Source of the DNA: a virus
Reading direction: 5' to 3' (one strand)
Length of the DNA stretch: 22,500 bases
Virus record (IMG/VR): IMGVR_UViG_3300030109_003790
Coordinates: 1 to 22,500 of that record
Below the pieces are notes generated by a model, which did no database searches, was not told the DNA's origin, and saw nothing but the letters and a program-made list of their open reading frames with translations. Shown piece after piece: positions 1,344-20,828 of this stretch. Position numbers and translations under genes: made by a program. Each line of letters opens with the position of its first letter. Position 1 is the stretch's first letter.

Positions 1344-1482
1344 TAAATTTTCCTCCTTTTTCAATAGAAACCTTACCACAATTAAAACAACCAAGATAAA
1401 CAGTGTATTTCATTCCCCAACGTGGGTGATAATCCCACTCTCTATCCACTTCAACAATAATCTTATTATTACAACAATTCAT
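1321..1482 (-). CDS. Small zinc-ribbon-like protein, 53 aa
   Basis: The ATG at 1482 overlaps the TGA of the upstream 67-aa gene (ATGA). The protein has C3-C4 near its start and C32-x2-C35, with an aromatic middle (W16, Y18, W22, Y26, Y29). This suggests a zinc-bound beta-ribbon. It is the second such small cysteine protein in this operon. Its 3' end carries, in another frame, the SD and start of the 39-aa gene. Function unknown. Confidence 0.6.
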   Translation of the reverse strand: MNCCNNKIIVEVDREWDYHPRWGMKYTVYLGCFNCGKVSIEKGGKFNDVNGIN

Positions 1483-1682
1483 GCTTTCACTTCCATTTTA
1501 CCAATTTCAATTCTTAGTTTCATTTCATCAAATTCCTCTAAAGCCTGTTGAGTCAATTCCATCAACTCTTCTACCGTATCAGACTTAACAGTTAATTCTT
1601 TAATAATCAAAGTACCATATCTGTCATGGCCGACTTTCAAGGAATATTTTTTCTCTTGTATTTCTTCTTTTTTCCAAAACAT
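1479..1682 (-). CDS. Hypothetical protein, 67 aa, paralogue of the gene at 3913
   Basis: First gene of the six-gene minus-strand operon. Residues 15-32 carry the core K-V-G-H-D-R-Y-G-T-L-I-I-K-E-L, followed by V-K-S-D-T and a helix. The same core is present in the 65-aa protein encoded on the plus strand at 3913-4110, and both begin M-F-x-(K/R)-K. The predicted fold is a short beta-hairpin plus helix. The CCATATGG dyad at 1751-1760 lies about 70 bases upstream of the start and is the likely promoter or operator. Function unknown. Confidence 0.75.
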   Translation of the reverse strand: MFWKKEEIQEKKYSLKVGHDRYGTLIIKELTVKSDTVEELMELTQQALEEFDEMKLRIEIGKMEVKA

Positions 1683-3864: not shown

Positions 3865-3912
3865 AACAACCCTATCAAACGATAGTTATTGTTGTCAATA
3901 ACGGTGAGAACC

Positions 3913-4110
3913 ATGTTTAGTAGAAAAAAAGAAATCGTAGCAATAAATAGTGAATCAAAAGTAACCCTCAAAGTAGGCCATGACAGAAATGGCACTTTAA
4001 TTATCAAGGAGTTGGCCGTCAAAGGTGACACAATTGATGAGGTAATAGAAAGAACAAGAGAAATGTTGTCAGAGTTTAATATGATGACAATTGATATGAA
4101 GGTGGCTTAA
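3913..4110 (+). CDS. Hypothetical protein, 65 aa, paralogue of the gene at 1479
   Basis: The core K-V-G-H-D-R-N-G-T-L-I-I-K-E-L-A-V-K is nearly the same as in the minus-strand 67-aa protein, so the two are diverged paralogues on opposite strands. The frame is open from 3889, but the ATG at 3913 is preferred. It gives the shared N terminus M-F-x-(K/R)-K-K-E-I and has a GGTGAG SD five bases upstream. It is followed without any gap by the 81-aa gene at 4111. Function unknown. Confidence 0.75.
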   Translation: MFSRKKEIVAINSESKVTLKVGHDRNGTLIIKELAVKGDTIDEVIERTREMLSEFNMMTIDMKVA

Positions 4111-4945: not shown

Positions 4946-5092
4946 ATGAGTAAGATGGATTATAAGAAAGCAAACAAAGAATTACGCCAGCATATTGAGT
5001 TGTTATTAGAGCATTTTGATAATGATGATGAGATGGGTTGGGTTAAATTAATGAAAATTGCTAAATTTGTTGTAAAGGTGGACTACGAATGA
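4946..5092 (+). CDS. Hypothetical protein, 48 aa, first gene of the late cluster
   Basis: The ATG at 4946 has a GGTGA SD five bases upstream, and the gene ends in an ATGA overlap with the first tagged gene at 5089, so the two are coupled. The product is a charged helical peptide. Residues about 33-39 read G-W-V-K-L-M-K, which loosely resembles the W-x-x-(I/L)-L-K tag of the following proteins but is internal and imperfect. Function unknown. Confidence 0.65.
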   Translation: MSKMDYKKANKELRQHIELLLEHFDNDDEMGWVKLMKIAKFVVKVDYE

Positions 5093-5379
5093 GTTGGAAA
5101 GATACGCTTAATAAAGGTAAGCGAATAGATAGTCTAGTTGCTTGGTGGAAAAATAGAAAGTTTAGAAATGCTGCAAGAAATTTTTTAAAGACACAAGTTG
5201 ATTTTGCTATGCAAGGTGATTATGGTAATTGGACTTATGTTCATAGACCAGAAAAAATGGTAGAAGATAAAGAAGAGTTTCTAAAAATTATGGGAGAAAT
5301 TTTTGAAGAAGAATATCCTAAACTTGGTAGAAGTGCAGCATCGGATATTAGCGTTAATGAATCAAGTTGGGGAGAGTGA
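5089..5379 (+). CDS. Tagged late protein, 96 aa
   Basis: Begins M-S-W-K-D-T-L-N-K, a variant of the shared N-terminal tag. It continues with a basic, aromatic helix (residues 10-35: A-W-W-K-N-R-K-F-R-N-A) and an acidic second half (about 55-96). The start overlaps the stop of the 48-aa gene. The next gene starts five bases after its stop. No family was recognised. By position and tag it is probably a virion or assembly component, which is inference. Confidence 0.75.
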   Translation: MSWKDTLNKGKRIDSLVAWWKNRKFRNAARNFLKTQVDFAMQGDYGNWTYVHRPEKMVEDKEEFLKIMGEIFEEEYPKLGRSAASDISVNESSWGE

Positions 5380-5384
5380 ATAAA

Positions 5385-5747
5385 ATGGGTTGGGAAGATA
5401 TTCTTAAAGAAAGACAGCCCGGTTGGGCCAATGATGAAGAGAAATGGGAATTGCGTGAACAAATGCAACGCCGAGCAGATAAAGCAGCATCTTATGATAA
5501 ACCCACTTATTCTGATGACCATGAATTTTATCTAAGTCTGGAATCAGTTACTAGAGATGGTCGGGATATGCCTGATTTGGATGAGCAAGAAACTTTTACT
5601 GGTACATTAGAAGAAGCAAAGAAATGGGCAGAAGAAAAATTTGATTATTATGCAGATTCAAATGAACAATTTAGAAATTATGGTAGTTCTGGTTTTAAAT
5701 TATATGATGAGGAAGATAATTTAGTTCATAGTGGCGGCTATTATTAA
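5385..5747 (+). CDS. Tagged late protein, 120 aa
   Basis: Starts M-G-W-E-D-I-L-K. An upstream in-frame Met at 5367 exists, but the ATG at 5385 puts the tag at the extreme N terminus, like its neighbours. After an Arg/Glu-rich helix (about 20-42) comes a part rich in Asp, Tyr and Phe that looks beta/alpha (E-F-Y-L-S-L-E-S ... E-E-A-K-K-W-A-E-E-K-F-D-Y-Y) and ends H-S-G-G-Y-Y. The middle could be a small ferredoxin-like fold, but I do not recognise it. SD GAGTGA lies upstream. Confidence 0.75.
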   Translation: MGWEDILKERQPGWANDEEKWELREQMQRRADKAASYDKPTYSDDHEFYLSLESVTRDGRDMPDLDEQETFTGTLEEAKKWAEEKFDYYADSNEQFRNYGSSGFKLYDEEDNLVHSGGYY

Positions 5748-5757
5748 GGTGATTAAA

Positions 5758-6054
5758 ATGAGTTGGGAAGATACAATTAGAAAAGATTTACGACCTGAAG
5801 ATTATAGAGAATTTGCTGCGAGAGATGCTATGATGGAATCTTCTCGTATTAAAGACATAGATAGAAGAATTAAAAAGGTTAAACAAGATTTGCAAGAAGT
5901 AAAAAATTTCATTACAGGTTTTCATAATCATACTGATGGTGAAGATTGGGAATATGATGAAGCACCTTCACTTAAAGCGTTTGATAATTTGAAGGAAGAA
6001 TTAGAGAAGGAAATTGAAGAATACTATGAGCATCTAAATTATCAAGGTGATTAA
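5758..6054 (+). CDS. Tagged late protein, 98 aa, probable coiled coil
   Basis: Starts M-S-W-E-D-T-I-R-K at 5758, with the SD AGGTGA six bases upstream. The longer frame opening at 5731 would bury the tag and overlap the previous gene, so it is rejected. Residues about 28-55 and 72-92 are Lys/Glu-rich heptad-like helices separated by a His/Asp-rich segment (F-H-N-H-T-D-G-E-D-W). The whole resembles a small helical hairpin. Role unknown; expressed with the other tagged proteins. Confidence 0.75.
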   Translation: MSWEDTIRKDLRPEDYREFAARDAMMESSRIKDIDRRIKKVKQDLQEVKNFITGFHNHTDGEDWEYDEAPSLKAFDNLKEELEKEIEEYYEHLNYQGD

Positions 6055-6055
6055 A

Positions 6056-6229
6056 ATGAGTTGGAAAGATTTACTCAAAGAAGATAAAGGATTAGGTGAT
6101 ACAATTGAACGTATTACTACTGCAACAGGAATTAAGAAAACTGTTGATACTATTTCTAAGGCAACCGGAAAAGATTGTGGTTGCAAAAAGCGTAAGGCTA
6201 AATTAAATGAGATGTTTAAATACCGGTGA
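6056..6229 (+). CDS. Tagged small protein with a DCGC motif, 57 aa
   Basis: Starts M-S-W-K-D-L-L-K. The rest, G-L-G-D-T-I-E-R-I-T (12-21), A-T-G-I-K-K-T-V, then D-C-G-C-K-K-R-K-x-x-L-N (about 41-52), recalls a small conserved segment that I associate with marine phage proteins reading G-D-T-I-E-K ... D-C-G-C-x-x-R-K-x-x-L-N-x-x-F. That family has no function known to me, and the recollection is not verified here. C42 and C44 could bind metal or form a disulfide. The ATG follows the previous stop by one base, with SD AGGTGA. Confidence 0.75.
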   Translation: MSWKDLLKEDKGLGDTIERITTATGIKKTVDTISKATGKDCGCKKRKAKLNEMFKYR

Positions 6230-6234
6230 TTATT

Positions 6235-6540
6235 ATGGAACAGTGGTGGGGAATACTCAAAAGAAAACTTGTTGGGCGTAAATTTAGAAATCACGTTGCT
6301 AACGAAATTGATGATATGCCCGAATGGGAAGTAACAGGTGTTGACCCTAATCCCGGAAAAAATGGTAGAATTGATTATACCGAAGAACCTGCTGAAGAAC
6401 CTTTAGAAGAAGCACCTCATAATATCTTTCCTCCTAATACTCCAAAAAACATGGATAACTATATGAGAAGATTACCTGCTAAATTACGACAAAATGCACA
6501 GGGCCGTGGCGGATTTAAGACTGGACAATTTAAGTTGTGA
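6235..6540 (+). CDS. Tagged late protein, 101 aa
   Basis: Starts M-E-Q-W-W-G-I-L-K-R-K at 6235 after a GGTGAT SD; an earlier in-frame Met at 6226 overlaps the previous gene and is less likely. A basic segment (9-24) follows the tag. Then comes an acidic, Pro/Glu-rich linker (about 50-66) and a basic C terminus rich in Arg, Gln and Gly (80-101). The low-complexity layout suggests a flexible adaptor or scaffold-type protein. No family recognised. Confidence 0.7.
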   Translation: MEQWWGILKRKLVGRKFRNHVANEIDDMPEWEVTGVDPNPGKNGRIDYTEEPAEEPLEEAPHNIFPPNTPKNMDNYMRRLPAKLRQNAQGRGGFKTGQFKL

Positions 6541-6545
6541 TTATT

Positions 6546-7334
6546 ATGAATTGGTGGACTCTACTTAAGCAAGTAGATATTGATTTTACTTTTGTAGAGG
6601 GAGCCGGTTGGTATGGATTATACAATAGGAAGGAAGATGAAATATTAATTAACCTTTCTGCCTTTGGTGGAGATTATTCTAAAAGTGGTTTGACTCAAAG
6701 TGATTATCAAAGAATGGAAGATATTATTGAAACTATTATGCACGAAGGAGGCCATGCTGCTGCTCTTGGAAAAAAATATGCAGATTTAGAAGTGGAATTA
6801 TATAATTGGGCAAGTAATAAAGTTTCCAGAATGTTTGAAGGTACTGATAAAAAGTTACAAGATATACGTCCGATTTTAACTAGGATTGTTGATTATTTAA
6901 TTAATGAATACGTTGCTGCTATTGCAGAAGGTAAAGCAGGTACAGAAGCCATGAAAAATGCTTATGACCAAACAATAGGAGCATTAGGTGAGGAATTACA
7001 TCAATTAGTTATGTTCTTTGATGCAGAAATGGGTGAAGAACCTAGTGATAAAGTTATGAATAGTATGATTGAGTCATTGTTTGGAGCGCCGACTCAATGG
7101 GAAGTAACAGAATACCTTATTCCACTATTTGATAAACATATTAATGGTATGGGAAAAATTATTTTTGATGCGTATAAGGAAGGAACAGCATACAGTGATA
7201 AGGAAGCATTTAAAGAATTAACAGGTGAAGAACCTAAACCAAAAGTTAGAGGTACGTTAAAACTGCCGCCTTTTATTAGAGATAGAGAAGGGCGAGCATC
7301 AGAAAATTGGATGGAAAGACTTAGAGGTGAATAA
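6546..7334 (+). CDS. Tagged metalloprotease-like protein (HEGGH), 262 aa
   Basis: Starts M-N-W-W-T-L-L-K-Q, a tag variant. Residues 66-70 are H-E-G-G-H in the helix I-I-E-T-I-M-H-E-G-G-H-A-A-A-L-G, the zinc-binding and catalytic HExxH signature of zincins: two His bind zinc and Glu activates water. A third ligand is not certain; E79, E81 or a later Glu in the following helix (E-V-E-L-Y-N-W-A) are candidates. The N-terminal part before it (8-60) looks beta-rich, and the rest is helical to about 230, then basic and disordered. It is the only protease candidate in the window, so it may mature tagged virion proteins. The specific family was not recognised. Confidence 0.7.
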   Translation: MNWWTLLKQVDIDFTFVEGAGWYGLYNRKEDEILINLSAFGGDYSKSGLTQSDYQRMEDIIETIMHEGGHAAALGKKYADLEVELYNWASNKVSRMFEGTDKKLQDIRPILTRIVDYLINEYVAAIAEGKAGTEAMKNAYDQTIGALGEELHQLVMFFDAEMGEEPSDKVMNSMIESLFGAPTQWEVTEYLIPLFDKHINGMGKIIFDAYKEGTAYSDKEAFKELTGEEPKPKVRGTLKLPPFIRDREGRASENWMERLRGE

Positions 7335-7335
7335 A

Positions 7336-8340
7336 ATGACAGACGAAATTAGTAAAATAAAGGGCGGTAGAGTAGTTCAGTATGAAAATTTACCTGAAGG
7401 CCCGAAGAAAAGAGTGGATGCTTTTTATCAAGTTATTGAAATAAGAAGCCGTAAAAAAATTATGGAAGAGATGGAGAAAACTGGTGTTGATTTTAGCCAT
7501 TACCAACATAAGAAAAGTGTCGAGGCTCATAATGAAAGGACTATTAAAGATAGAAGTAGGCGATGGTGGAATTTAACTGAAAATGATGCTATTCCTCGAA
7601 GTTGCCCTCTTGAGGGTCATTTAAGTAAACAGTTGGCTGAAGACGCAAGAGAGCGAACAAGCGGATTAACAGGCGTTAAGGTAAGAGCGGCTATTAAAAA
7701 TTATTCAGAAAAAGAAGTTAGTGAGATGGTAGATGAGTATGTTGAAGAAGTTATTGATGCTCCTTATGTTAAGAGTTTAATGGCTATGATGGAAACTTAT
7801 CTTGCAGAAGGTGAAGCCTATAATACAGGACAAGCCGGTGATAAACCATATCGAGAGCGAAGAAAGGATTTATCGTATGCTCTTAAAGTTCTTAGAAGCC
7901 AAGTTGATGAAGTAATTAAAAGAAATGAATGTTTCCCACCACTTGCATTAGAACAAATTGAAGATGTTCGTAAAATGGCTATAAGAAAGGGTGGCGCACA
8001 TGATGGGCATATTGCAACAATGGATTATATTTCTGATATGATACAAGAAAATTTATGCCCTTACGATGAAGAAAATAAATCAGTCAAAGGTGTAATGGAT
8101 GCTATTAAAAATGTTAAAGAAGCATTAGAATCTGAACCTGATAGGGAAATGAAAAGTGTCCCAGAAGTTAAGAAATCATGGTGGGACACATTAAAAACTG
8201 CTGGTGCAGTAACTACTACTAATCCGGGAACAAAGGATATGTTTAACAATGAAGCAATTAATCCTCCTAGAAAAAAGAAAAAGAAGGAAGAAGACATTTA
8301 TCCCATTGTTCCAGAAGATATGGATTTTTTCAGAGATTGA
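7336..8340 (+). CDS. Late protein with an internal tag, 334 aa
   Basis: No tag at the start (M-T-D-E-I-S-K), but residues 281-287 read S-W-W-D-T-L-K, preceded by V-K-K and followed by a Thr/Asn/Pro/Lys-rich tail (about 290-334) ending in an acidic peptide. Residues 1-275 are helical and charged, with G-G-A-H-D-G-H at about 217-223 as a possible metal-binding turn. The start at 7336 follows the previous stop by one base, with SD AGGTGA. The internal tag splits the protein into a large domain and a short tail. No family recognised. Confidence 0.75.
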   Translation: MTDEISKIKGGRVVQYENLPEGPKKRVDAFYQVIEIRSRKKIMEEMEKTGVDFSHYQHKKSVEAHNERTIKDRSRRWWNLTENDAIPRSCPLEGHLSKQLAEDARERTSGLTGVKVRAAIKNYSEKEVSEMVDEYVEEVIDAPYVKSLMAMMETYLAEGEAYNTGQAGDKPYRERRKDLSYALKVLRSQVDEVIKRNECFPPLALEQIEDVRKMAIRKGGAHDGHIATMDYISDMIQENLCPYDEENKSVKGVMDAIKNVKEALESEPDREMKSVPEVKKSWWDTLKTAGAVTTTNPGTKDMFNNEAINPPRKKKKKEEDIYPIVPEDMDFFRD

Positions 8341-8350
8341 GGTGATTTAA

Positions 8351-10204
8351 ATGGCTTGGCAGGATATTCTTAAGAGTTATGACTTAGAAGAGTTTATTGT
8401 TAAATCGAAAGGTTCTAAAAAGAAAAAGGGCGAGAAAGATGTTAAGGTAAATATTCCCGGCGGGACATTAACTGTTACGCAGACCGCTATGATTACTAAA
8501 CTACAAAATGATATGAAAAGATGGTATGAAACTTGTAGTAGTCTTAAGATGGAAGATATTGGTATTGTCGGTGAAAAGGGAAATACTAGCCTATTAGATT
8601 TTATTATGGACCATGTAGACCAAAGAGTTCAAAGACCTAAACAAGAAACAAAAGTAGGTGCTATGGACACTATTAAGGATATTATGGAAATTGTTAGAGA
8701 AGATGATATTTACACTAAAGAAGATTTAAAAACTGTTCAAGAATTTATTGACACTTTAGAAGAAATTGAAAAGGATAGTAGGTCTAATCCCAAGAACATT
8801 ATATTTACTGAGCAGCACAGTAGAACGAAAACTGTAACTGTTAGAGGCCATTATCGAACTCCTTGGTTTGAAAGAAAAACAGGTAAAAAAGCAGTACCTG
8901 AAGGTTGGTATGATTTAGATGCTGGTCCCGGAAAAACTAATGATAAATCTCAGGCCAAACCCCCAATGTGGCAAGCACTGTTTAATGGTAGAACTTTACA
9001 AAAATCTACTGTTCCGGGTTTAGAGAGAGGTTTGCTAACTTTACTTATTGACTTTGAAGAGGAAATGAAGAATCAAAAAATTGGTGATATTCCTATTGTT
9101 GGCAAACAGGGTAGAGAAAGAGTAATTCAAATTCAAGGTGTTATTAAGGGCCTTAGTAATATTCTTGCTAATCAAGAAAGTTACCATAGTACTAACGAAC
9201 CATTTAAGAGACTATGGTTAAATGTCGCAAATGTGCGTAAACAATTAAATACTTTTGATTTTGAAATTGCAACTAACGATAAGAATGGGGTAGAAGCAAT
9301 TAGGTCATTAGTTCCTGCTCTTGAAGATTCTATTTCTGAAAATTTAGGACCATTTAGAATTGTTAAAATTACTCCCGGCCTATTGAGAAGTATTGTTCGT
9401 AGAATGGGCATCAACTTAGATACTTTTGCTCACGGTGGGTATAAGGGTATTTTCTTACATAGGCCTTGGACTACAAAGAGTATCGAAGGTAGAAAGAAGT
9501 TATGGGAAACAGAATATAAAAAGGCTAAGAAAGATGGTAATTTACCTCGCTGGGCAGAAAAAGATGATGAAGGCGGTGAAGGTGGAGGCGGAGTTAAGAA
9601 GTCTTGGGAAGATATTCTTAAATTAATGCCACAAAGAATTGAACCTATGAAAAACCCTGCCGCTGGATTACATATGCCTTCAGTATATAATAAGGCAAGA
9701 CAGGCGGAAATTAGTAGAAATAAAGGTGAAACTTGTGATTTTTGTGATAAGGAAGTTGTTTTAGATTGTAAAGATTGTAGACAAAAATTATGCTATGACC
9801 ATTTAAATAAACCTTGTGTTACAAAAAAATCTTTTACTAAGGCCGAAAGAAAAGAAAAGCAACCTGTTAGAATGGCAGGTGGTGAAATTAGTATATCAGA
9901 TTTAAGAAGACTATTCCAAGAAATTGATGATGATTTTGATGAAGAGGATGGGGATATTGAAAAGGAATTAGTTTTGGTAGTAATTCCTACTATGTGGGAA
10001 GATGGGAGTAAAGAGTTAAAATTTGGAGTATTTACATATAATTTTGCTAAACAACATTTTGGTGATTCGCAGTTAAAACGGTTGATTGAAAATGCTGCGG
10101 GAATTGCTGGCGCGAGATTAGTTACTAGAGAGGATTTAACGGAAATTTCTTTTGGGCGAAAATTAGAAGTCAATTCTCCTATGCAGAGTATTAATATGGA
10201 GTGA
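8351..10204 (+). CDS. Large tagged protein with second internal tag and zinc finger, 617 aa
   Basis: Starts M-A-W-Q-D-I-L-K-S after SD GAGGTGA. The first domain (about 25-400) begins with a basic Lys-rich stretch and has helical and beta segments. Residues about 402-417 are an Asp/Glu/Gly-rich linker ending V-K-K, followed by a second tag S-W-E-D-I-L-K at 418-424. The C-terminal part has a zinc-binding cluster, C462-x2-C465-x7-C473-x2-C476-x4-C481-x2-H484-x4-C489, similar in spacing to B-box or AN1-type fingers. A final alpha/beta domain runs from about 515 to 617. It looks like two formerly separate tagged proteins joined by a flexible linker. Function unknown. Confidence 0.75.
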   Translation: MAWQDILKSYDLEEFIVKSKGSKKKKGEKDVKVNIPGGTLTVTQTAMITKLQNDMKRWYETCSSLKMEDIGIVGEKGNTSLLDFIMDHVDQRVQRPKQETKVGAMDTIKDIMEIVREDDIYTKEDLKTVQEFIDTLEEIEKDSRSNPKNIIFTEQHSRTKTVTVRGHYRTPWFERKTGKKAVPEGWYDLDAGPGKTNDKSQAKPPMWQALFNGRTLQKSTVPGLERGLLTLLIDFEEEMKNQKIGDIPIVGKQGRERVIQIQGVIKGLSNILANQESYHSTNEPFKRLWLNVANVRKQLNTFDFEIATNDKNGVEAIRSLVPALEDSISENLGPFRIVKITPGLLRSIVRRMGINLDTFAHGGYKGIFLHRPWTTKSIEGRKKLWETEYKKAKKDGNLPRWAEKDDEGGEGGGGVKKSWEDILKLMPQRIEPMKNPAAGLHMPSVYNKARQAEISRNKGETCDFCDKEVVLDCKDCRQKLCYDHLNKPCVTKKSFTKAERKEKQPVRMAGGEISISDLRRLFQEIDDDFDEEDGDIEKELVLVVIPTMWEDGSKELKFGVFTYNFAKQHFGDSQLKRLIENAAGIAGARLVTREDLTEISFGRKLEVNSPMQSINME

Positions 10205-10209
10205 TTAAT

Positions 10210-10866
10210 ATGAAAACAAGAAAACATTGTCGAGTATGTCAGTCTGACAGAAGAGAAGAAATAGAAGAGTCTATTCATTCTATGGATAAAACTGCTGATG
10301 ATTGGGATAAAGAAATGGATTGGCCTTCAGGAACAACAAGTCGGCATATGAGAAATCATGCAGGGGAATATGAGCAAAAATCTAACCCAAGGTGTAAATT
10401 ATGTACAGACCCTTCAAGAGATATTTATGAGAAAGGTCTGGCTGATGGTTCATTAGCATCAAAAGATTTGGCTGCTGTTTTAGGAACAACAACTGACCAA
10501 ATTGCATTACATATGAGAAGCCATCTTCAACCATTAGTTCAGAAATCTGCGGCTCAAATGATTGCTAAAAAGGAATTAGATGAGATTGAGTTATTATCTA
10601 AGAACATTCAAAAATTAGATGTTAAGTTGGATGAAATTTTTCATCAGGATGACATTGATTCTAAGACGATTGATTCATTAACTAAGTTGGCTAGAGAGGT
10701 TCGTGAGAGTTTAAAATATCTTATGGAATTCAAAGGAAAACTTATTCACAAGAGGCAAGATACAATTGTTATCGCACAGATGCAAATTGTTAAAGAAGTT
10801 TTGGCTCAACAACATCCTCAAGTTTGGCTTGATGTTAAGAGTAAGATGCAGGAGAAGTTACAATGA
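10210..10866 (+). CDS. Double zinc-finger/HTH protein, possible small terminase, 218 aa
   Basis: Two similar units: C7-x2-C10 ... H46-x3-H50 and C62-x2-C65 ... H101-x3-H105. Each spans about 44 residues; the second contains a clear helix-turn-helix-like segment (L-A-S-K-D-L-A-A-V-L-G-T-T-T-D-Q-I-A-L-H). The C-terminal half (about 115-218) is a long helical region suited to oligomerisation. DNA-binding repeats followed by a helical oligomerisation part fit a small terminase, which selects viral DNA for TerL, or a transcription regulator. It lacks the tag, as does TerL. A GTG start at 10201 is possible; the ATG at 10210 has SD GGAGTGAT. Its stop overlaps the next ATG. Confidence 0.55.
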   Translation: MKTRKHCRVCQSDRREEIEESIHSMDKTADDWDKEMDWPSGTTSRHMRNHAGEYEQKSNPRCKLCTDPSRDIYEKGLADGSLASKDLAAVLGTTTDQIALHMRSHLQPLVQKSAAQMIAKKELDEIELLSKNIQKLDVKLDEIFHQDDIDSKTIDSLTKLAREVRESLKYLMEFKGKLIHKRQDTIVIAQMQIVKEVLAQQHPQVWLDVKSKMQEKLQ

Positions 10867-11177
10867 GTTGGGAAGATATATTAAAAATTAGCACAAAGGA
10901 TGCCATGTCTGATGCAAGAAGATTTGCGCCGGAAGATGTAAAAGAAGCAGAAAAAGAAGTTCAGGCTGCTATGAAGGAAAGAATGCGACCTGTTCTTCTG
11001 AATATGATAAAAGCATATATGTCAGCAGAAGACCCTAAAGGGACTAGAATGATGCTCAATTCGATTAAACAGGTGCTTAGAGAATATGATTTAGCCCCTT
11101 CCTTATATGGTAGATTTGCAGATAAAGAGGCAAATAAGAAAATTTTACTTGATTGGTTAGGCGAAGAGAGTGATTGA
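10863..11177 (+). CDS. Tagged late protein, 104 aa
   Basis: Starts M-S-W-E-D-I-L-K-I-S in an ATGA overlap with the zinc-finger gene. The product is almost all helical: a Glu/Lys-rich helix (24-50), M-I-K-A-Y-M-S-A-E-D-P-K-G-T-R-M-M-L-N-S (about 47-66) and a final helix ending D-W-L-G-E-E-S-D. It is the last gene before the only real gap in the late cluster; tandem hairpins follow its stop. No family recognised. Confidence 0.75.
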   Translation: MSWEDILKISTKDAMSDARRFAPEDVKEAEKEVQAAMKERMRPVLLNMIKAYMSAEDPKGTRMMLNSIKQVLREYDLAPSLYGRFADKEANKKILLDWLGEESD

Positions 11178-11182
11178 TAAAT

Positions 11183-11216
11183 TAGCCACATGGCTATCTA
11201 AATACGCACAGTATTT
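11183..11216 (+). terminator. Tandem hairpins in the 11.2 kb gap
   Basis: TAGCC-ACAT-GGCTA at 11183-11196 is followed by AAATAC-GCACA-GTATTT at 11200-11216. They lie just after the stop of the 104-aa gene and just before a dyad-like element. This marks a transcript boundary inside the late cluster. The first stem shares its ACAT loop and flanks with the stem at 4366-4377. Confidence 0.5.
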
Positions 11217-11217
11217 A

Positions 11218-11235
11218 CCAAAGTATACAATATGG
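11218..11235 (+). promoter_or_regulatory. Degenerate CCAAAG...ATATGG element (copy 11)
   Basis: CCAAAG at 11218-11223, then TATA, then CAATATGG at 11228-11235. It matches the left-arm copy at 4382-4400 in order and nearly in spacing, with one mismatch in the palindrome. It lies 15 bases before the start of the 46-aa gene and is the only such element found in the late cluster, exactly in its only gap. Confidence 0.45.
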
Positions 11236-11249
11236 GGAAAAGGGTTATA

Positions 11250-11390
11250 ATGCTCAATTGGGATTATTGGAACGCTCAACTTGAAGGTTACAAGAATCTA
11301 AATAAAAAGAAAATTTGGCGTGACCATAAAAACGAACATAAAGATGTAATTGATAAAATTTACGAATGGTACTGGGGTGACGAACAATGA
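11250..11390 (+). CDS. Hypothetical protein, 46 aa
   Basis: A short frame rich in Trp, Tyr, Lys and Asn (M-L-N-W-D-Y-W-N ... I-Y-E-W-Y-W-G-D). The N terminus has a Trp at position 4 but lacks I-L-K, so I do not count it as tagged. Its stop overlaps the start of the 782-aa gene (ATGA at 11387-11390). It starts the second block of the late cluster. Function unknown; it may also serve translational coupling. Confidence 0.6.
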   Translation: MLNWDYWNAQLEGYKNLNKKKIWRDHKNEHKDVIDKIYEWYWGDEQ

Positions 11391-13735: not shown

Positions 13736-16203
13736 TTGATGATAGTACTAAAGAAGAAATTATTAAGGATATACTTCAGTATATCCATCAGGGCGGTTCT
13801 CTTGCAGAGGGTATTAAACAACAGCAAGAGAAACATAATAGTAAATTTGAAGACCCGACAACAGGGGTAGTCAAAAGATTTTGGAAAGGTGTCCGTAAAG
13901 AAGTTAGTAAGAAAATGAAGGGTTCAGATAAAGATGTTCAAGATAAAGCATTAAAGGCTGCTACTAGTGCAGTTAGAAACTTTTTAACTGGGATTAAATT
14001 TAAGGGTAAATTTATACGAACAAGAATTTTAGATACCTTGCCACAAATTACTGAAGACTCTAAACACAGGCTTTCAATCACTGATAAATTTAATAAGGAT
14101 ATGGATAACTTTGAGAAAGAAATGGAAGCAATATTACCTTTGTTAGAAAGAGCAGGTAAGCGTAATTTATACCCTGTGTTAGAGCGAATATTTAATGAGA
14201 TTTCTATTCAAATTTTTAATACACCTGATTCTGAAGAGTTAGAAAAACTTAACATGATGGTTGAAGATTTCTATAAAGAATTAGGTGAAGTAGATTTAAA
14301 GAAAGCAAATGATAGAGAAAGAATGTATATGTTTTGGGAAAGAGTTCAAGACAAATATCCCGAGTTAGTTACTGCTGTTAATAATTTAAAGGATGTTCTT
14401 GAAGACCAAAGACCCGATGATAAAGAGTATCAAGATTTAGTTGCAGAATTAGAAGTTCCCCCTCCTTATATCAAAAAGATTGGAATAGTTGAAAAACAAT
14501 TTTCTACTCATGTTGAGAGAATTATTGATTTAATTTCTAGATTAGGTGCTAAGCGACCTGCTAGAACCACATATTCTCGGCAAAGTATTAGAACTAAAGA
14601 TGGTAAATTACAGCCGGAATTATCTCAAAGAGTGCCTGAAAAAGCCCCCGGCGGTTCTAGGGATGAAAGAGTTTTTGAAGGAGATGTTGAAGGAACAGTA
14701 CCAACCTTTGCTACTACATTAAAATTAGACCCAATTTTATGGCACAATATTAGTCAAGAATTACAAGAATTACCTGTTGGTATGGGTGAGGACTTAGAAG
14801 ATATTTTAACAGAGTTAGGTATTATTAGAGAAGCCTTGCCAGAAGGCGACCAAAAGAGATTAATAGAAGATTTGATTGAAGAGTTGAAGGAATCTGTTAA
14901 GGATATTCCTGAAGCAATTATGTTCTTACCTATTACATATTGGTTAAGGGAATTTGATTCGGGAGTAATAGAGGAAATTAATGAAATTACTACTAAAACA
15001 GGTAAGTTCTTTGCTGTTCTTAATAGACTGTTTTTAGAAAGTGGAAAATTACCAATTACTATGAGTCCTAAAGTCGGTGGACCGCAGCGAGGTGCAGCCG
15101 GTGGTTCTATTCAAGTTAGTGGTAAAGATGACCCTCAAGGATTTAGAAGACCCAGAACTCAAGGCACTCCAAGTGAAATACCTTCTGAAAAATTAGAAGA
15201 ATATGTTTCTGAAGTTAAGGAAGAGTTTGACAAATTAAAGGAATTATTGAATGCTTATTATTTCCAGCCTTTAAGTAAAGGTAAATTTGTTGATGAAAAA
15301 CCTGAGTTTGTAGATAAGGGTGGTGTTGATTTTGGTGAGGAATTTGACCCCGATGCTACAACTCAAGAAGGTAGATACCCATACAGGGCTATGGAATTAA
15401 ATTTCGGCACTAGTGCTAAGGCAAAAACTTTACAGAATATGCTAAGAGCATTGGATGATAACTTCTTTGACACTGAATTATTGGAAGATTTAATTAATTA
15501 TTTGCAACTCTTAAAGGGAGGATTTAGTTCTGTTGAGGGTTGGGAAAACTATGTTAGGGAGATTCAATTAGGTATTACTAATGTCTTAGATGAGTTAATG
15601 CCAGATTTTGCAGAAGAGCATAGAATTTGGGGTGCTGGTAAGATTGGTGAGGCAATTTTAGCGCATCAAGATAAAAAACTTCTCTCCGAGTTAAAGTATT
15701 TTAATAAGCCTTTAGATGAGTATTATCAAAAATATCTTGAAATGGGAGATAAGGATTTACCATTAACTAATTTACGAAGTATTTTACAATCACCTGATTT
15801 CCAGAATTTACTTAGAGAGGAACAAGAAAATTCATCAAAGGAAGATTTTGACGCACTTGATAAGAGTATTGATAAGATTATGGATTTGACTGAACCTAAA
15901 AAGGAACAGGGTGTTAAGGAACAAATTGATATTCAGGAAAGTAGAATTGGTAAATCATTATTAACTGTTCATGATTATATTAATAAGATGAATGGGCTTC
16001 CTATTTATTATGGTAAATTAGATGTTGAGGATGTGGATGATGTTGATTATCTAATTAATAAGATAGAGAAAGAAGATAAATTGGAAATTAATTGTGTAGA
16101 AATTACAGGAATTGTGAATTCTATTGATTCCCATAGTAATATTTCTAAATCTTTTGGTGTAACAGAAAAAATTGTTTACAAGATTAAGGGGTTGTGTAGA
16201 TGA
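13732..16203 (+). CDS. Very large untagged protein of unknown function, 823 aa
   Basis: Starts M-I-D-D-S-T-K-E-E-I-I-K, without the tag. The protein is hydrophilic, acidic and helical, with several proline/glycine-rich disordered breaks (about 270-315, 443-485 and 525-550) separating helical blocks of roughly 130-200 residues. The last 70 residues (from I-G-K-S-L-L-T-V-H-D-Y) form a more compact alpha/beta part. It starts in an ATGA overlap with the 782-aa gene and ends in an ATGA overlap with a tagged 80-aa gene. Scaffold-, tape- or internal-protein roles are all possible; no family was recognised. Confidence 0.75.
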   Translation: MIDDSTKEEIIKDILQYIHQGGSLAEGIKQQQEKHNSKFEDPTTGVVKRFWKGVRKEVSKKMKGSDKDVQDKALKAATSAVRNFLTGIKFKGKFIRTRILDTLPQITEDSKHRLSITDKFNKDMDNFEKEMEAILPLLERAGKRNLYPVLERIFNEISIQIFNTPDSEELEKLNMMVEDFYKELGEVDLKKANDRERMYMFWERVQDKYPELVTAVNNLKDVLEDQRPDDKEYQDLVAELEVPPPYIKKIGIVEKQFSTHVERIIDLISRLGAKRPARTTYSRQSIRTKDGKLQPELSQRVPEKAPGGSRDERVFEGDVEGTVPTFATTLKLDPILWHNISQELQELPVGMGEDLEDILTELGIIREALPEGDQKRLIEDLIEELKESVKDIPEAIMFLPITYWLREFDSGVIEEINEITTKTGKFFAVLNRLFLESGKLPITMSPKVGGPQRGAAGGSIQVSGKDDPQGFRRPRTQGTPSEIPSEKLEEYVSEVKEEFDKLKELLNAYYFQPLSKGKFVDEKPEFVDKGGVDFGEEFDPDATTQEGRYPYRAMELNFGTSAKAKTLQNMLRALDDNFFDTELLEDLINYLQLLKGGFSSVEGWENYVREIQLGITNVLDELMPDFAEEHRIWGAGKIGEAILAHQDKKLLSELKYFNKPLDEYYQKYLEMGDKDLPLTNLRSILQSPDFQNLLREEQENSSKEDFDALDKSIDKIMDLTEPKKEQGVKEQIDIQESRIGKSLLTVHDYINKMNGLPIYYGKLDVEDVDDVDYLINKIEKEDKLEINCVEITGIVNSIDSHSNISKSFGVTEKIVYKIKGLCR

Positions 16204-16442
16204 GTTGGAAATCAATACTAAAAATGTCTTCTAACATTGAGTGGTTAATTGAGCAATTAGATGATAATGAAGTAGTAGAGATTTCTGGGACTACTGATGC
16301 TAATGAAATAGAAGTAATATTAGAAATTCCAATAGACCCTAGATTTATTGAATGGATGAGTAAAACATATAAGATTGATTTAATAAGTTCTGAAAGAAGG
16401 GGAACTAGAAATAAATATAAGATTGAAGCACTAGGAGCGTGA
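16200..16442 (+). CDS. Tagged late protein, 80 aa
   Basis: Starts M-S-W-K-S-I-L-K-M. The rest reads like a small alpha/beta domain: helix (N-I-E-W-L-I-E-Q-L), strand (E-V-V-E-I-S-G), strand (I-E-V-I-L-E-I-P), helix (P-R-F-I-E-W-M-S-K) and strand. The Ile/Val-Glu alternation suggests an edge-packed sheet. It overlaps the 823-aa gene by four bases and the next gene follows after four bases. No family recognised. Confidence 0.75.
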   Translation: MSWKSILKMSSNIEWLIEQLDDNEVVEISGTTDANEIEVILEIPIDPRFIEWMSKTYKIDLISSERRGTRNKYKIEALGA

Positions 16443-16446
16443 AAAA

Positions 16447-17607
16447 ATGACATGGAAATATATATTAAAAAATACAGCAGGTTCTGGTCCTGAAGATATG
16501 GGTGGGATATTTACTATTGATATGTTTAAAAATAGTAATTGGGTTAATGCTTTAGAGCAATTATTATCATTATCAATTAAGGATGCTGAAATGGGAGAGG
16601 TTCAAAGTTTTAAAAAGGTAACTGATGATGCAATTAATTATGGGCTTGAATACTATGTTGACTTGTTTAATACTTTAATGCAATTTACTGATTATGGTAA
16701 AGATGTGTTAGATGCTTCTGAAGATTATGGCCAATCCACTCGAAGATTTGCAGGAGAAAAAGAAATATCTGAGCCTAAAGCCGGAGATAAAGGTAGAGGC
16801 ATGACGCCTAAAAGATTAGAATATCTTACTAATTCTATTAGTAAATCTGTTGAGTCGAATGTCACCAAGTTAATTCGGGATATACAAAATAAAATAGATA
16901 GATTTCACGCCAAGGGTGGAGAATTAGAAGAAAGTGATGAGAAGGTGGATTTATCAGAAGGACTCACTGAAGAAATGGTAAATCAAACTTGGGACCAATT
17001 GACAGCAGGAAATTATGTAGATGGGCTATTATTAGAGGGAACTGATGATATTGCTGAAGCATTTACAGAATCCGGGTTTAAAGTTAGTACTGTGGATATG
17101 AAAACTGTTGCTAATCAAATGAAAGATAAAGAGAGTACAAAAAAGTTTTTGACTCATGTTTCTATTATTTTAGAAAGTAAAATTATTCAAGGTATGGGTG
17201 CAAGAAGTCCTGAAGAGATAGATAGGAAACTTAAAGACCTTTTAACCGAAGAAGAGATTAAATGGTTTAAAGATAATGCTGTACGAGTTTCAGAAAATTT
17301 AGGCCCGTTGGGTACTATTGATGAGACAGTATATCCAGAAGTAGATAGATTTGGTATTCCTAAAATTAGACAAGTTAACCCAGAAACAGGTGAAGAGTAT
17401 TTTATTCCTAAAGATATTGGAGAAATTAGTGACCCTGATTTTGACCCTGCTGAAGAAAGTGAAGATAGACCTGCACCCGAAGTTCAAGAATATGACCCTG
17501 AATCAGGAAGAATGAGAACACCTGCGGAATGGCGACAATTTCAAGATAAATTTGCATCGGAAGATTCTAATGATATAACTTGGTTTAGCATATTGAAAGA
17601 AGAGTGA
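16447..17607 (+). CDS. Late protein tagged at both ends, 386 aa
   Basis: The only protein here with tags at both termini: M-T-W-K-Y-I-L-K at residues 1-8 and T-W-F-S-I-L-K-E-E at 378-386, the very end. Between them are a helical domain (about 25-170), a second helical part (about 180-275) and an acidic, proline-rich tail from about 285 to 370 with D-P-D-F-D-P-A-E-E-S-E-D. A V-Y-P-E-V-D-R-F-G-I-P turn precedes it. The disordered tail places the C-terminal tag on a long tether. SD GGAGCGTGA precedes the ATG. No family recognised; a bridging or scaffold role would fit. Confidence 0.75.
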   Translation: MTWKYILKNTAGSGPEDMGGIFTIDMFKNSNWVNALEQLLSLSIKDAEMGEVQSFKKVTDDAINYGLEYYVDLFNTLMQFTDYGKDVLDASEDYGQSTRRFAGEKEISEPKAGDKGRGMTPKRLEYLTNSISKSVESNVTKLIRDIQNKIDRFHAKGGELEESDEKVDLSEGLTEEMVNQTWDQLTAGNYVDGLLLEGTDDIAEAFTESGFKVSTVDMKTVANQMKDKESTKKFLTHVSIILESKIIQGMGARSPEEIDRKLKDLLTEEEIKWFKDNAVRVSENLGPLGTIDETVYPEVDRFGIPKIRQVNPETGEEYFIPKDIGEISDPDFDPAEESEDRPAPEVQEYDPESGRMRTPAEWRQFQDKFASEDSNDITWFSILKEE

Positions 17608-17611
17608 TTTT

Positions 17612-18838
17612 ATGGACGAATCTGAAGGTATTCATGGCCCGGTTAGTGAGCAAGTAATTGCTTCATTATTCGAGAAACATCATGGGCCTAATGTGTACAA
17701 TATGAGGGAAGGTAGAATTCCTAGTTGGTACACAGATAACATGCAATATTTTTATGAAATTTATAAGGGTAAAATATTAAGCACTCTTGGATATATTGAT
17801 AAACTAACTTACTATATTTTGGGTGGAGCATTTGTTTATAGTAAATGGAAAAGCGATTCTGGTTATTTTGGTAAACCTCTTAATAAATTAATGGGGTTAA
17901 GAGAAACTAAACTAAAAAGGGATTTGCCTAAAATAGCAGGATTTAAATATACTGGACCGGTTACTCCTGATAGAAACCAAGAAACGTATGTCGAGATGAT
18001 GAGTCAATATTACGATATAGACCCTGTTGATACTAAAGGTATTCCTGAAGATATGGTTGATAATTTTAGTAACAGATACCCAAATGCTTGGGGAGTTAGA
18101 ATAAATGGTGATTCAGATAGTTTGGAAAGAATGGCTAAAGGTCTTTCTGATTGGTTTTCTAGTAGTTGGTGGGATGTAGTTAAGGTGCAAGTGTTAGATA
18201 CTAGTACGGGAATACAGTCTATTAATGAACCTATGATAGAGGATAAGGATTGTTATAACAAATTGATGCAAAAGATGGAAAGTTGGTTATTTAATCCAAA
18301 ACTAGTATCTTTAGAAATAACTGAAACTTATTTAGATAATGTTGTAGAGTTTAGTCATCCTAGTCGAGCAAAACCGGGTGATGTTAAACAGCGTAATAGT
18401 GAACATAGGAAGCGAGGAAGAATTATTGAAGACTATTCTTCAAACGAAATGAAATACCCCTTTAAACCCAGGGATGTTGAATTAGAATTTTATGGTGTGA
18501 TTTTTGAACAAAACTGGGATACAAGAGAGTATGAACAAATATCAGAAGAGGATGCTTGTACAATTTTAGAAATATTTGATTTGTTAAAATCTGCTAACAA
18601 CTCGACTGAGGGAACTTTGAATGGCTTAAAATACAATTATTATCATTATTCTAGAGCCCCTGTTAGAACTAAAAAGGGCATTGAAGAATCGCGCGAATTA
18701 GTTATTGAACGTGAATTAGGCACAAAATATAAAAGGTCGCAACCTTTATTAGATTTAGATACACGCTTAATTTTTAATTATGGTGTTATTATTAATCTTG
18801 GTGAAGTTATTAGAAGTTTAGATTTCCTTAAGTGGTGA
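17612..18838 (+). CDS. Two-domain late protein with an internal extended tag, 408 aa
   Basis: Starts M-D-E-S-E-G-I-H, untagged. Residues 1-180 form an aromatic, helical first domain. Residues 185-191 read S-W-W-D-V-V-K, followed at once by V-Q-V-L-D-T-S-T and S-I-N-E-P-M (to about 210), then E-D-K-D-C. This is the same long block found at the N termini of the five following paralogues. The second domain (210-408) is different from theirs. The protein looks like an untagged domain fused in front of a member of the extended-tag family. SD GAGTGAT lies upstream of the ATG. Function unknown. Confidence 0.75.
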   Translation: MDESEGIHGPVSEQVIASLFEKHHGPNVYNMREGRIPSWYTDNMQYFYEIYKGKILSTLGYIDKLTYYILGGAFVYSKWKSDSGYFGKPLNKLMGLRETKLKRDLPKIAGFKYTGPVTPDRNQETYVEMMSQYYDIDPVDTKGIPEDMVDNFSNRYPNAWGVRINGDSDSLERMAKGLSDWFSSSWWDVVKVQVLDTSTGIQSINEPMIEDKDCYNKLMQKMESWLFNPKLVSLEITETYLDNVVEFSHPSRAKPGDVKQRNSEHRKRGRIIEDYSSNEMKYPFKPRDVELEFYGVIFEQNWDTREYEQISEEDACTILEIFDLLKSANNSTEGTLNGLKYNYYHYSRAPVRTKKGIEESRELVIERELGTKYKRSQPLLDLDTRLIFNYGVIINLGEVIRSLDFLKW

Positions 18839-18843
18839 TTGTT

Positions 18844-19347
18844 ATGGGTTGGGAAGATATACTAAAGGTTCAGATTCTTGATACAAGTACAGGACTAAGT
18901 TCAATTAATGAACCGATGATTGATGAAGATAAAGAAAAATGTTGCTTGAAGGCATATGAAAATTTTGTAACACTTTTATGTTTTTATGCTACAAAGGATG
19001 AAAATAATATAGGATATATAAAATCAAGATTAAGCGGAACTGATGAAGATTGGGATAATTACATTAACCACATTATTCAAGGTAGTCGAGCGACACTTGA
19101 TGTATTAGCAGAAGATATGGGAATAGGTATTATAGATGGGGAAAAATTATGTACAAATAGTAATGCTCCTAATTTTGATGCTAATCTTTGCGATAAATTA
19201 GAGCAAGTTATGGAAGATGCTAAAGAGTATTTTTGGGGTGTGTTTGATAAATTTCAAAATAATACAGTTCCCGGTGCTACTGCCTATGACATTTTTGATA
19301 TAATTAAAATTATATTTAAAGAATGGGAGGATTGTGAAAATGCTTGA
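18844..19347 (+). CDS. Extended-tag cysteine protein 1, 167 aa
   Basis: Longest of the five paralogues. It starts M-G-W-E-D-I-L-K, followed by V-Q-I-L-D-T-S-T and S-S-I-N-E-P-M, then an acidic run and a C-C pair at about 36-37. The middle has additional Cys (E-K-L-C and N-L-C-D-K-L) and helices; the end is E-W-E-D-C-E-N-A. Four conserved Cys positions could bind zinc or form disulfides. The ATG at 18844 follows SD GGTGA at 18834-18838; the frame opening at 18832 is rejected because it would bury the tag. The W-E-D-C codons contain the SD of the next gene. Confidence 0.75.
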   Translation: MGWEDILKVQILDTSTGLSSINEPMIDEDKEKCCLKAYENFVTLLCFYATKDENNIGYIKSRLSGTDEDWDNYINHIIQGSRATLDVLAEDMGIGIIDGEKLCTNSNAPNFDANLCDKLEQVMEDAKEYFWGVFDKFQNNTVPGATAYDIFDIIKIIFKEWEDCENA

Positions 19348-19684
19348 TTGGAAAGAGATTCTTAAGGTTCAGGTATTAGATACCTCTACAAGTTTATCTA
19401 CTATTAACGAACCTATGTTAGATGACGATAATAACTGTTGTGATGAATTAAAGGAAAGATTAATTGACTGGTGGAAAGAATGGGTCGATTTGGGTGATAA
19501 ATTTACATATCGAGATGATATGGATATGTTTGAACAACATACATTGTGGATAAGGAAAAAGACTTGTGATGAACTTTTAGATTGGTTTGAAAGTGAAATT
19601 AGAGATGGGGATAAAAATATTATAGGTTATATGTATCTTGTAGAAACATTTATGAAATATGAAGATTGTCTTTTGGGTGAGTAA
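19340..19684 (+). CDS. Extended-tag cysteine protein 2, 114 aa
   Basis: Starts M-L-D-W-K-E-I-L-K, followed by V-Q-V-L-D-T-S-T and S-T-I-N-E-P-M. An acidic D-D-D-N-N leads to the C-C pair. The middle holds a Trp-rich helix (W-W-K-E-W) and T-C-D-E-L-L-D-W-F. It ends K-Y-E-D-C-L-L-G-E: the Cys anchor is kept although here the codons do not supply the next SD (a GGGTGAG further on does). A GTG start at 19334 is possible but less likely. Starts inside the end of gene 1. Confidence 0.75.
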   Translation: MLDWKEILKVQVLDTSTSLSTINEPMLDDDNNCCDELKERLIDWWKEWVDLGDKFTYRDDMDMFEQHTLWIRKKTCDELLDWFESEIRDGDKNIIGYMYLVETFMKYEDCLLGE

Positions 19685-19685
19685 T

Positions 19686-20018
19686 ATGTGGCAAGATATT
19701 TTAAAAGTTCAGGTATTAGATACTACTAGTAGTTTATCTAGTATAAATGAGCCTATGATGGAAGATAAAGATTGTTGCGAATTAGCGCGTGAGAAATTTC
19801 TTGAAGAACAAGCAAATTATTATGACGATAAAATATATATTGATTATATTGAAGAAATACTTGGTCTTACGAATTGTAAAACATTTAGAGAAATATTGCA
19901 AGATGTGAAAAATAGCAATCAAGCCCCGCATCTTGGCGGGCGATATAGAAAAGAACAACCAAAATCAAGTATACCGTATCTCAATACACTTCGTTTTTGG
20001 GAGGAATGTGAGAAATGA
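19686..20018 (+). CDS. Extended-tag cysteine protein 3, 110 aa
   Basis: Starts M-W-Q-D-I-L-K, the shortest lead-in to the tag: Trp is residue 2. It is followed by V-Q-V-L-D-T-T and S-S-I-N-E-P-M, then E-D-K-D-C-C. The middle contains N-C-K-T-F-R-E-I-L-Q and a Gly/Arg/Lys-rich loop (G-G-R-Y-R-K); it ends F-W-E-E-C-E-K. The longer frame from 19659 would start inside gene 2 and bury the tag, so the ATG at 19686 is chosen. An ATGA overlap links it to gene 4. Confidence 0.75.
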   Translation: MWQDILKVQVLDTTSSLSSINEPMMEDKDCCELAREKFLEEQANYYDDKIYIDYIEEILGLTNCKTFREILQDVKNSNQAPHLGGRYRKEQPKSSIPYLNTLRFWEECEK

Positions 20019-20416
20019 ATTGGGAAGATATTTTAAAAGTCCAAGTCTTAGATACTACCACTAGTTTATCTAGTATAAATGAGCCTATGATGGAAGATAA
20101 GAATTGTTGTGAAGAGGCAAAAGAGGAATGGATAGCAATAGTAAGACAGGATATTGGTCAATATGAGGGTTATGATATTCCGCCCGGAGGTTATTTGCCG
20201 GGCGAAACATTAGAAAATACAAGCATTATTTATCGTTATGAAAATATGTCCTGTGAAGAATTAAGAGGGATATTGGAAGATATTAGTGGTAAAAAACCCG
20301 GTCGTCTGTATAATATTCACTATACTCAAAGGAAGAAAGATTTCGGTATTCCTACTATGCTTCATCGGCGTGGTAAAGATTTATTGACAGGTTGGGAGGA
20401 GTGTGAAAATGAGTAA
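20015..20416 (+). CDS. Extended-tag cysteine protein 4, 133 aa
   Basis: Starts M-N-W-E-D-I-L-K, followed by V-Q-V-L-D-T-T-T and S-S-I-N-E-P-M, then E-D-K-N-C-C. Its DNA over the tag is close to that of gene 3, so these two probably duplicated most recently. The middle has a Pro/Gly-rich stretch (I-P-P-G-G-Y-L-P-G) and M-S-C-E-E-L-R-G-I-L-E-D-I. It ends G-W-E-E-C-E-N-E, whose codons contain the GGGAGG SD for gene 5. Function unknown. Confidence 0.75.
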   Translation: MNWEDILKVQVLDTTTSLSSINEPMMEDKNCCEEAKEEWIAIVRQDIGQYEGYDIPPGGYLPGETLENTSIIYRYENMSCEELRGILEDISGKKPGRLYNIHYTQRKKDFGIPTMLHRRGKDLLTGWEECENE

Positions 20417-20828
20417 TTGGGAAAATATTCTTAAGATTCAAGTCTTAGATACTACTACTGGTTTATCTAGCATTAATGAACCTATGGTCGAGGATGAACC
20501 AAATTGTTGCGAAATAGCCATAGATGCATATGAAGATTTAATAGTCGAATATTCCCATATGGGAAAGAGTGAAGATGAGAGAAGATGGGCTAAAGAGGCT
20601 TGGGACGACTATATTTTTATATTAAAAGAATATGGTTCATATAATACTTGGACAATACAGGAACATTTAGAACATAGAAAGGGTGGATTAAATGAAAAGA
20701 CTTGTGATTTTTTTTGGTGGTATTTAAACGAATTCAACAACGACCTCCATAGAATGAATGAAGTCGAAGAAATAAGGAACCAAGTAAAAGATATACTTAA
20801 TAATTGGGAGGAATGTAAAAATGAATGA
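20409..20828 (+). CDS. Extended-tag cysteine protein 5, 139 aa
   Basis: Starts M-S-N-W-E-N-I-L-K, followed by I-Q-V-L-D-T-T-T and S-S-I-N-E-P-M, then E-D-E-P-N-C-C. The middle is Trp- and Tyr-rich and contains E-K-T-C-D-F-F-W-W-Y-L. It ends N-W-E-E-C-K-N-E, and the W-E-E-C codons hold the GGGAGG SD for TerL. A GTG at 20403 is a less likely start. It overlaps gene 4 and terL by eight bases each. A perfect TCCCATATGGGA inside this gene is coding and lacks the CCAAAG/CTTTGG arms. Confidence 0.75.
   Translation: MSNWENILKIQVLDTTTGLSSINEPMVEDEPNCCEIAIDAYEDLIVEYSHMGKSEDERRWAKEAWDDYIFILKEYGSYNTWTIQEHLEHRKGGLNEKTCDFFWWYLNEFNNDLHRMNEVEEIRNQVKDILNNWEECKNE

Follow-up and report, generated by a model that had tools for sequence, protein, structure and literature searches.

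In bacteriophage T4, the first 10 residues of internal protein IPIII suffice for targeting, which is done by residues 4 and 7, and the internal-protein cargo comprises diverse defence proteins with the capsid-targeting sequence (CTS) alone in common (PMC9026906, PMC3012670). Short peptides also send cargo inside a shell in encapsulins (cargo-loading peptides) and bacterial microcompartments (encapsulation peptides), and the building blocks of encapsulins and phages have homologous folds (PMC13185644). In P22, cargo is loaded via fusion to the scaffolding protein, the C-terminal helix-turn-helix of which is required for capsid assembly (PMC9962691). Here we describe a short peptide tag (strict form W-x-x-[ILVM]-[ILVM]-K) on late proteins encoded in IMG/VR virus record IMGVR_UViG_3300030109_003790 (42,892 bases; "the window" denotes the stretch analysed, positions 1-22500 of the record). 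The virus appears to be magrovirus-like and to infect Poseidoniales archaea, an assignment made because its genome layout and gene content match those described for the Magrovirales. According to the analysis, the tag is probably a short linear motif of helical form, by which virus-encoded cargo is sent into the assembling head (prohead) in the manner of the T4 CTS, which would place the tagged proteins inside the virion. A common docking signal for virion assembly had been proposed in the original prediction; a peptide signal on unrelated late proteins fits all tests run, but it is not confined to N termini and it sits on putative accessory cargo only.

A six-frame motif scan of the record and its list of open reading frames (ORFs) bore out the 20 copies in 18 late genes that had been reported for the window. 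All 16 N-terminal copies proved to be real ORF starts, 14 of them strict and two loose (MSWKDTLNK at 5089; MSWEDTIRK at 5758), and the internal or C-terminal copies comprise three strict ones (9605, 17581 and 18167) and one loose one (8179, SWWDTLK, in the 7327 gene). Seven further N-terminal tags are found in the record beyond the window (W at 23719, 24135, 24526, 26526, 29933, 38472 and 38644). When N termini were shuffled (2000 shuffles), tagged proteins arose at a mean of 0.03 and a maximum of 2, compared with 21 observed in the record. No tagged gene was found in the left arm of the window on either strand.

Relatives were obtained by a TerL (terminase large subunit) search of IMG/VR, which returned 80 loci on contigs of up to 103 kb. 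In this first clade (the 80 loci and the window record), 487 ATG-started tagged ORFs were found on the TerL strand versus 0 on the opposite strand, counts that are slightly generous because the mechanical gene calls favour tagged starts, the antisense control being zero. A second clade, the TerL of which is ~58-61% identical to that of the first, gave 120 tagged ORFs on the TerL strand versus 0; relatives in the first set were found for only 34 of its 110 unique tagged proteins, and its consensus is identical. Tags thus occur throughout the lineage, around the packaging and head genes. A purine-rich, Shine-Dalgarno-like stretch lies at -12 to -6 before tagged ORFs, which indicates that tag starts are true gene starts. 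The consensus is M-[STN]-W-[EQKF]-[DENS]-[IV]-[LIV]-K, in which W and K are fixed by the search pattern, the [IV] and [LIV] between them are strongly biased, and [DENS] and [EQKF] are preferred; the W stands two residues past M in 380 of 435 unique tagged proteins. After the K there is no conservation, and an alignment of 148 tagged representatives gave MSWxDILK with nothing conserved beyond. The strict definition leaves out degenerate forms seen in many relatives (e.g., MTWEDMLIK, KKSWVEHLWR).

The exact DNA pattern for MSW[EQ]DILK had 4 matches in 257 Gb of cellular genomes (no archaeon-labelled record among them; ~1 expected by estimate), which is near chance, so that the tag is not above chance in cellular genomes; in the viral collection it had at least 119. 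Among the matches listed, 39 of 46 contigs found by the tag pattern alone carry the same TerL and one more carries the portal, and of the other six, five contain genes homologous to those of the same group and the last (L100) bears three tags and no recognised relatives. The tag is lineage-specific. It is near-absent from the replication arm and from cellular genomes, so that the outcome named beforehand as damaging, a tag equally common in early genes or host proteins, was not what we found. No common N-terminal tag was found near TerL of the haloarchaeal relative HGTV-1, and in the literature, as far as our partial coverage reached, we found neither the motif nor conserved N-terminal tags of archaeal or magrovirus proteins.

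Clustering outside the tag gave 187 families with tagged members, 106 of which are single proteins. Core late proteins were never tagged, namely TerL (0/81; 20821..22272 on the + strand of the window), portal (0/81), late ligase (0/72), family 6 (0/70; a conserved 823-aa late protein at 13732..16203, +), protease (0/41) and capsid protein (0/8), nor were the TerS-like zinc protein (0/49 homologues; 10210..10866, +) and the conserved late families 7, 8 and 11; the absence of the tag from TerL and the TerS-like protein, first noted in the window, holds in the relatives too. In five records the tagged genes lie amid the TerS, TerL, portal, protease and capsid genes, most of them preceding the capsid gene and some following it, and in these five records neither the recognised large tail genes nor the opposite arm had a tag. 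Judged by this distribution, the tag is a label on putative accessory cargo, the core head machinery being without it.

The tag is also mobile within proteins. In family 10 (the window gene at 8351 and its relatives), the Trp of a C-terminal tag is invariant in all 25 aligned members, some of which have an N-terminal tag as well. The 617-aa window protein is among these: it begins with MAWQDILK (8351..8374, +; motif scan and alignment), and its internal WEDILK (W419; 9605..9622, +) aligns with the invariant C-terminal Trp, which is internal here because a zinc-finger-like domain has been added behind it. C-terminal tags were also found in families 85 and 341 and in the 386-aa protein of the window gene at 16447, which ends in WFSILK-EE-stop (17581..17598, +; motif scan). 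Several two-domain proteins have the tag exactly at the domain junction, with a second domain that is a stand-alone tagged gene elsewhere (L020_224, L037_931, L040_3266, L051_7354, L070_3104 and L084_619); L019_2558 and L019_3064, for instance, are separate in one genome and fused as L020_224 in another. Likewise, in the window gene at 17612, WWDVVK (18167..18184, +; motif scan and fusion comparison) joins an untagged ~185-aa domain to a domain with VQVLDTSTxxxSINEPM, which is common to the next five genes. These last five window genes have a longer N-terminal segment in common and are true paralogues there, as had been noted when the other tagged proteins were called unrelated; that statement needs amending insofar as the shared stretch after the tag also occurs inside the 17612 gene. 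In a protein at L019:3810-4061, two tags stand in tandem at the start (MSWQDILKIDITMNWQDVIK). AlphaFold modelled both tags of the 617-aa protein as isolated short helices, the first (residues 3-9) at low confidence and followed by a disordered stretch (10-23), the second (419-424) within a low-confidence linker (406-450). No significant match came up when folds were searched with the family 10 model.

Known domains were found in few tagged proteins, and the recognisable ones form an RNA-repair set. Three adjacent tagged genes at L015:3842-5979 encode a 2H cyclic phosphodiesterase (PF08302), a HAD phosphatase of RNA-repair proteins (HAD_SAK, PF10307) and a CCA-adding nucleotidyltransferase (PF01743 family), and at L009:3352-4988 a cyclic phosphodiesterase and a CCA-adding enzyme, each with its own tag, lie directly before TerL in the late arm. 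The latter CCA-adding enzyme has a tag-like C terminus too (ISKMSWEDLLWR). This recognisable cargo suggests a role in immediate counter-defence, e.g., mending tRNAs cut by host nucleases. Other tagged proteins are small basic or cysteine-rich/zinc-rich ones. One of the tagged proteins (L004:3710-4123) has a CYHKVKSRY domain (CYHKVRSRYKKWPSAYASGALVQCR) common to 365 phage records, mostly of cyanophages (Synechococcus, Prochlorococcus), where in the two cases checked it lies inside proteins annotated as virion or structural. A comparison of the same cargo under a different tag failed here, because the cyanophage CYHK domain has no T4-like CTS and sits within a longer protein. A link through CTRATKK-type cargo, sought in phages, gave no match.

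As to how loading might work, the Trp and the two following hydrophobic residues would form one face of a short helix, and this face would fit into a groove on some multi-copy component of the assembly, for which the inner face of the capsid protein and the scaffold domain of the protease-scaffold are the probable choices. Cargo docked in this way would be shut inside the head, travel in the virion and enter the next cell together with the DNA. A candidate for the partner comes from the C termini of the protease-scaffold (L004:13767-15251) and a 78-aa coiled-coil protein (L004:10256-10492), which have in common a [KN]M[SD]W-x-[DE]-I element (IAKMSWDDIN...); the shared element suggests that the coiled-coil protein, in which it is predicted as two short helices, is another head protein of scaffold type. 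Ranked against all Trp sites, the C termini of the scaffold and of family 7 exceed the 90th percentile over positions -1 to +3 but fall short of it across the full tag, and since the likeness is confined to the first half of the tag, mimicry of the scaffold is a lead only.

Two explanations would make the tag something other than a peptide address. In one, gene starts carry a translation or transcription signal at the DNA or RNA level, which encodes a peptide incidentally; the bias of codons near the start (Ser AGT in 221 of 224, Glu GAA in 97%, Ile ATA in 65%) speaks for it. The codons for Leu, Ile, Val and Lys are nonetheless free to vary, and AGT is the chief second-codon Ser in untagged genes too (167/219), so that the bias of the tag is partly general to gene starts; the tag is moreover kept at C termini and inside proteins, which refutes this scarcely conceivable explanation. 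Because codon choice varies, the peptide is the conserved level, and on this point the original prediction was right. The other explanation, that a single gene, recently duplicated, gave rise to all tagged genes and left the tag as a remnant, draws on the true paralogy of the last five window genes in their N-terminal segment and holds for these five only. For the set as a whole it is extremely improbable, with 187 families, nothing conserved past the tag in 148 representatives and a tag that has moved to C termini, and it is refuted by the codons of identical residues in tags of different families, which agree in 61% of cases within genomes versus 58% between genomes. Agreement this similar means that the copies are not recent duplicates with matching synonymous sites, the second outcome that had been named in advance as fatal to a conserved signal.

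The remaining explanations concern where a peptide address would lead. The tag might dock to another hub of late infection (an intracellular assembly site, a membrane, a chaperone or a complex bound to portal or terminase), and the tagged proteins would then be assembly helpers or late enzymes outside the head. The same sequence facts suit any hub, the tags cluster near the TerS, TerL and portal genes, and two early-arm genes are tagged; on the other side, RNA-repair enzymes and small basic zinc proteins would make poor assembly helpers, the CYHK cargo domain lies within annotated cyanophage virion proteins, and the T4 precedent with its equal spacing is a head signal, so that we regard another hub as unlikely. 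It is still less credible, and in our estimation improbable, that the tag serves to build the tail or other external parts of the virion. Some tagged genes do lie downstream of the capsid gene, and two tagged representatives weakly match a model of a phage tail tube initiator, but no recognised large tail gene is tagged in the five records, most tagged genes precede the capsid gene, and tagged families so numerous and varied suit cargo better than a fixed tail. Loading into the prohead remains the explanation that we prefer, although several observations count against it. The tag helices are modelled at low confidence; the W-x-[DE]-I element at the scaffold and coiled-coil C termini resembles only the first half of the tag; no conserved prohead-protease site was found in the 35 residues searched after the tag, though a prohead protease is encoded and T4 CTSs are cleaved off. 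The absence of tags from left-arm genes, moreover, holds in the window but not in other genomes, where two replication-arm genes are tagged (G005:3006-3710 and G002:68375-68680, both on the - strand). The latter of these two genes has a GNAT-like GRGLG motif.

The remaining tags of the window, all on the + strand, are as follows. The loose N-terminal forms, taken from the ORF list, are MSWKDTLN (5089..5112), in a 96-aa protein, and MSWEDTIR (5758..5781), whereas MGWEDILK (5385..5408), MSWKDLLK (6056..6079) and MEQWWGILK (6235..6261) were given by both the ORF list and the motif scan. The motif scan further placed MNWWTLLK (6546..6569) at the start of a 262-aa protein with a HEGGH (metallopeptidase-like) motif, for which no PDB or Pfam relative was found, as well as MSWEDILK (10863..10886), MNWMNILK (11387..11410; 782-aa protein), MSWKSILK (16200..16223) and MTWKYILK (16447..16470; the 386-aa protein mentioned above). 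The loose internal WWDTLK (8179..8196, coordinates counted by hand from the sequence) lies 47 residues before the C terminus of the 7327 gene. In the last five genes, the scan found MGWEDILK with the extension VQILDTSTGLSSINEPM (18844..18867) and, likewise with the extension, MLDWKEILK (19340..19366), MWQDILK (19686..19706), MNWEDILK (20015..20038) and MSNWENILK (20409..20435).

The Magrovirales have been described as tailed viruses of Poseidoniales archaea (PMC10768690, PMC12999244) with 90-110 kb of double-stranded DNA and with morphogenesis and replication genes on two opposite arms (PMC12999244, PMC10768690); their gene set comprises family B polymerase, clamp loader, ERCC4 nuclease, TFB, ATP-dependent ligase and HK97-type head genes (PMC10768690, PMC12999244). 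This size and layout were found in our relatives, since those of 86-103 kb have two opposed arms, and a 99-kb relative with opposed arms encodes PolB (family B polymerase), RFC, ERCC4 nuclease, a TFIIB zinc domain, a PD-(D/E)XK nuclease and a ligase. The gene set was found in relative G003, which also has the S78 protease and the SU10-type capsid protein, and the window record codes for TerL, portal, S78 prohead protease, SU10-type capsid protein and an ATP ligase-like late protein. A second ATP ligase-like protein (L004:11202-13730, record 31202-33730) has 842 aa, is untagged, has long N- and C-terminal parts without a match, and lies in the late arm directly before the protease in 72 of the loci; G003 has a ligase on the other arm too. 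The contig G026 (184,733 bases) has one TerL gene at 84 kb and a different one at 175 kb, and may be two joined virus genomes or a chimeric assembly. In the left arm of the window, a 44-base stretch at 1594-1637 recurs as an inverted repeat at 3970-4013 (-) with 84% identity; the two copies fall in ORFs 1479-1682 (-) and 3889-4110 (+), with similar peptides (SLKVGHDRYGTLIIKELTVK / TLKVGHDRNGTLIIKELAVK).

Magroviruses are found throughout the surface ocean, yet no member is in culture and the majority of their late genes lack annotation; a tag readable from sequence would single out the proteins likely to travel in the particle and to enter the cell at infection. The presence of RNA-repair enzymes among the tagged proteins suggests that certain tailed viruses arrive with tRNA repair instead of making it after infection. 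More specifically, the whole lineage may use the tag as a universal peptide address, independent of position, through which a rapidly exchanged and open-ended set of proteins is loaded (among them tRNA/RNA-repair enzymes, along with further probable counter-defence factors), the tag occupying the same assembly groove as the scaffold C terminus, a proposal that we regard as plausible, if somewhat short of probable. Were it true, any gene that gained eight codons would become virion cargo, and the effector repertoire of uncultured viruses could therefore be read from the tag in sequence data alone. A tag of this kind would be a broad archaeal counterpart of the T4 internal proteins and possibly a tool for loading HK97-type heads.

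Compared with known systems, the likeness to encapsulins and microcompartments is one of concept and no sequence relation is claimed, the shell here being a virus head with scaffold, portal and terminase; the recognised head genes of the window record are of the tailed-virus type. P22 loading is an engineered fusion, whereas a natural tag that mimics the scaffold terminus is only a suggestion, prompted by the C-terminal W-x-[DE]-I element that the magrovirus-like protease-scaffold and small coiled-coil protein share. The CTS of T4 IPI-IPIII differs from the tag in that no homology is detectable and T4 IPII and IPIII have neither Trp nor Lys at the tag positions; the tag belongs to an archaeal virus, is found on up to ~20 proteins per genome (a few in T4) and occurs at C termini and internally, not at N termini only. 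In both systems, however, a peptide of about ten residues, N-terminal in T4, is the sole feature common to otherwise unrelated proteins, and the cargo is diverse and includes counter-defence proteins (candidates in the magrovirus-like viruses). The original prediction had likened the tag to the T4 signal in concept while noting that the sequences differ, and the likeness goes further than it stated, as Y4-x-x-F7-I8 of IPIII (MKTYQEFIAE) has the same spacing as W-x-x-[IV]-[LIV] of the tag, with polar or acidic residues between.

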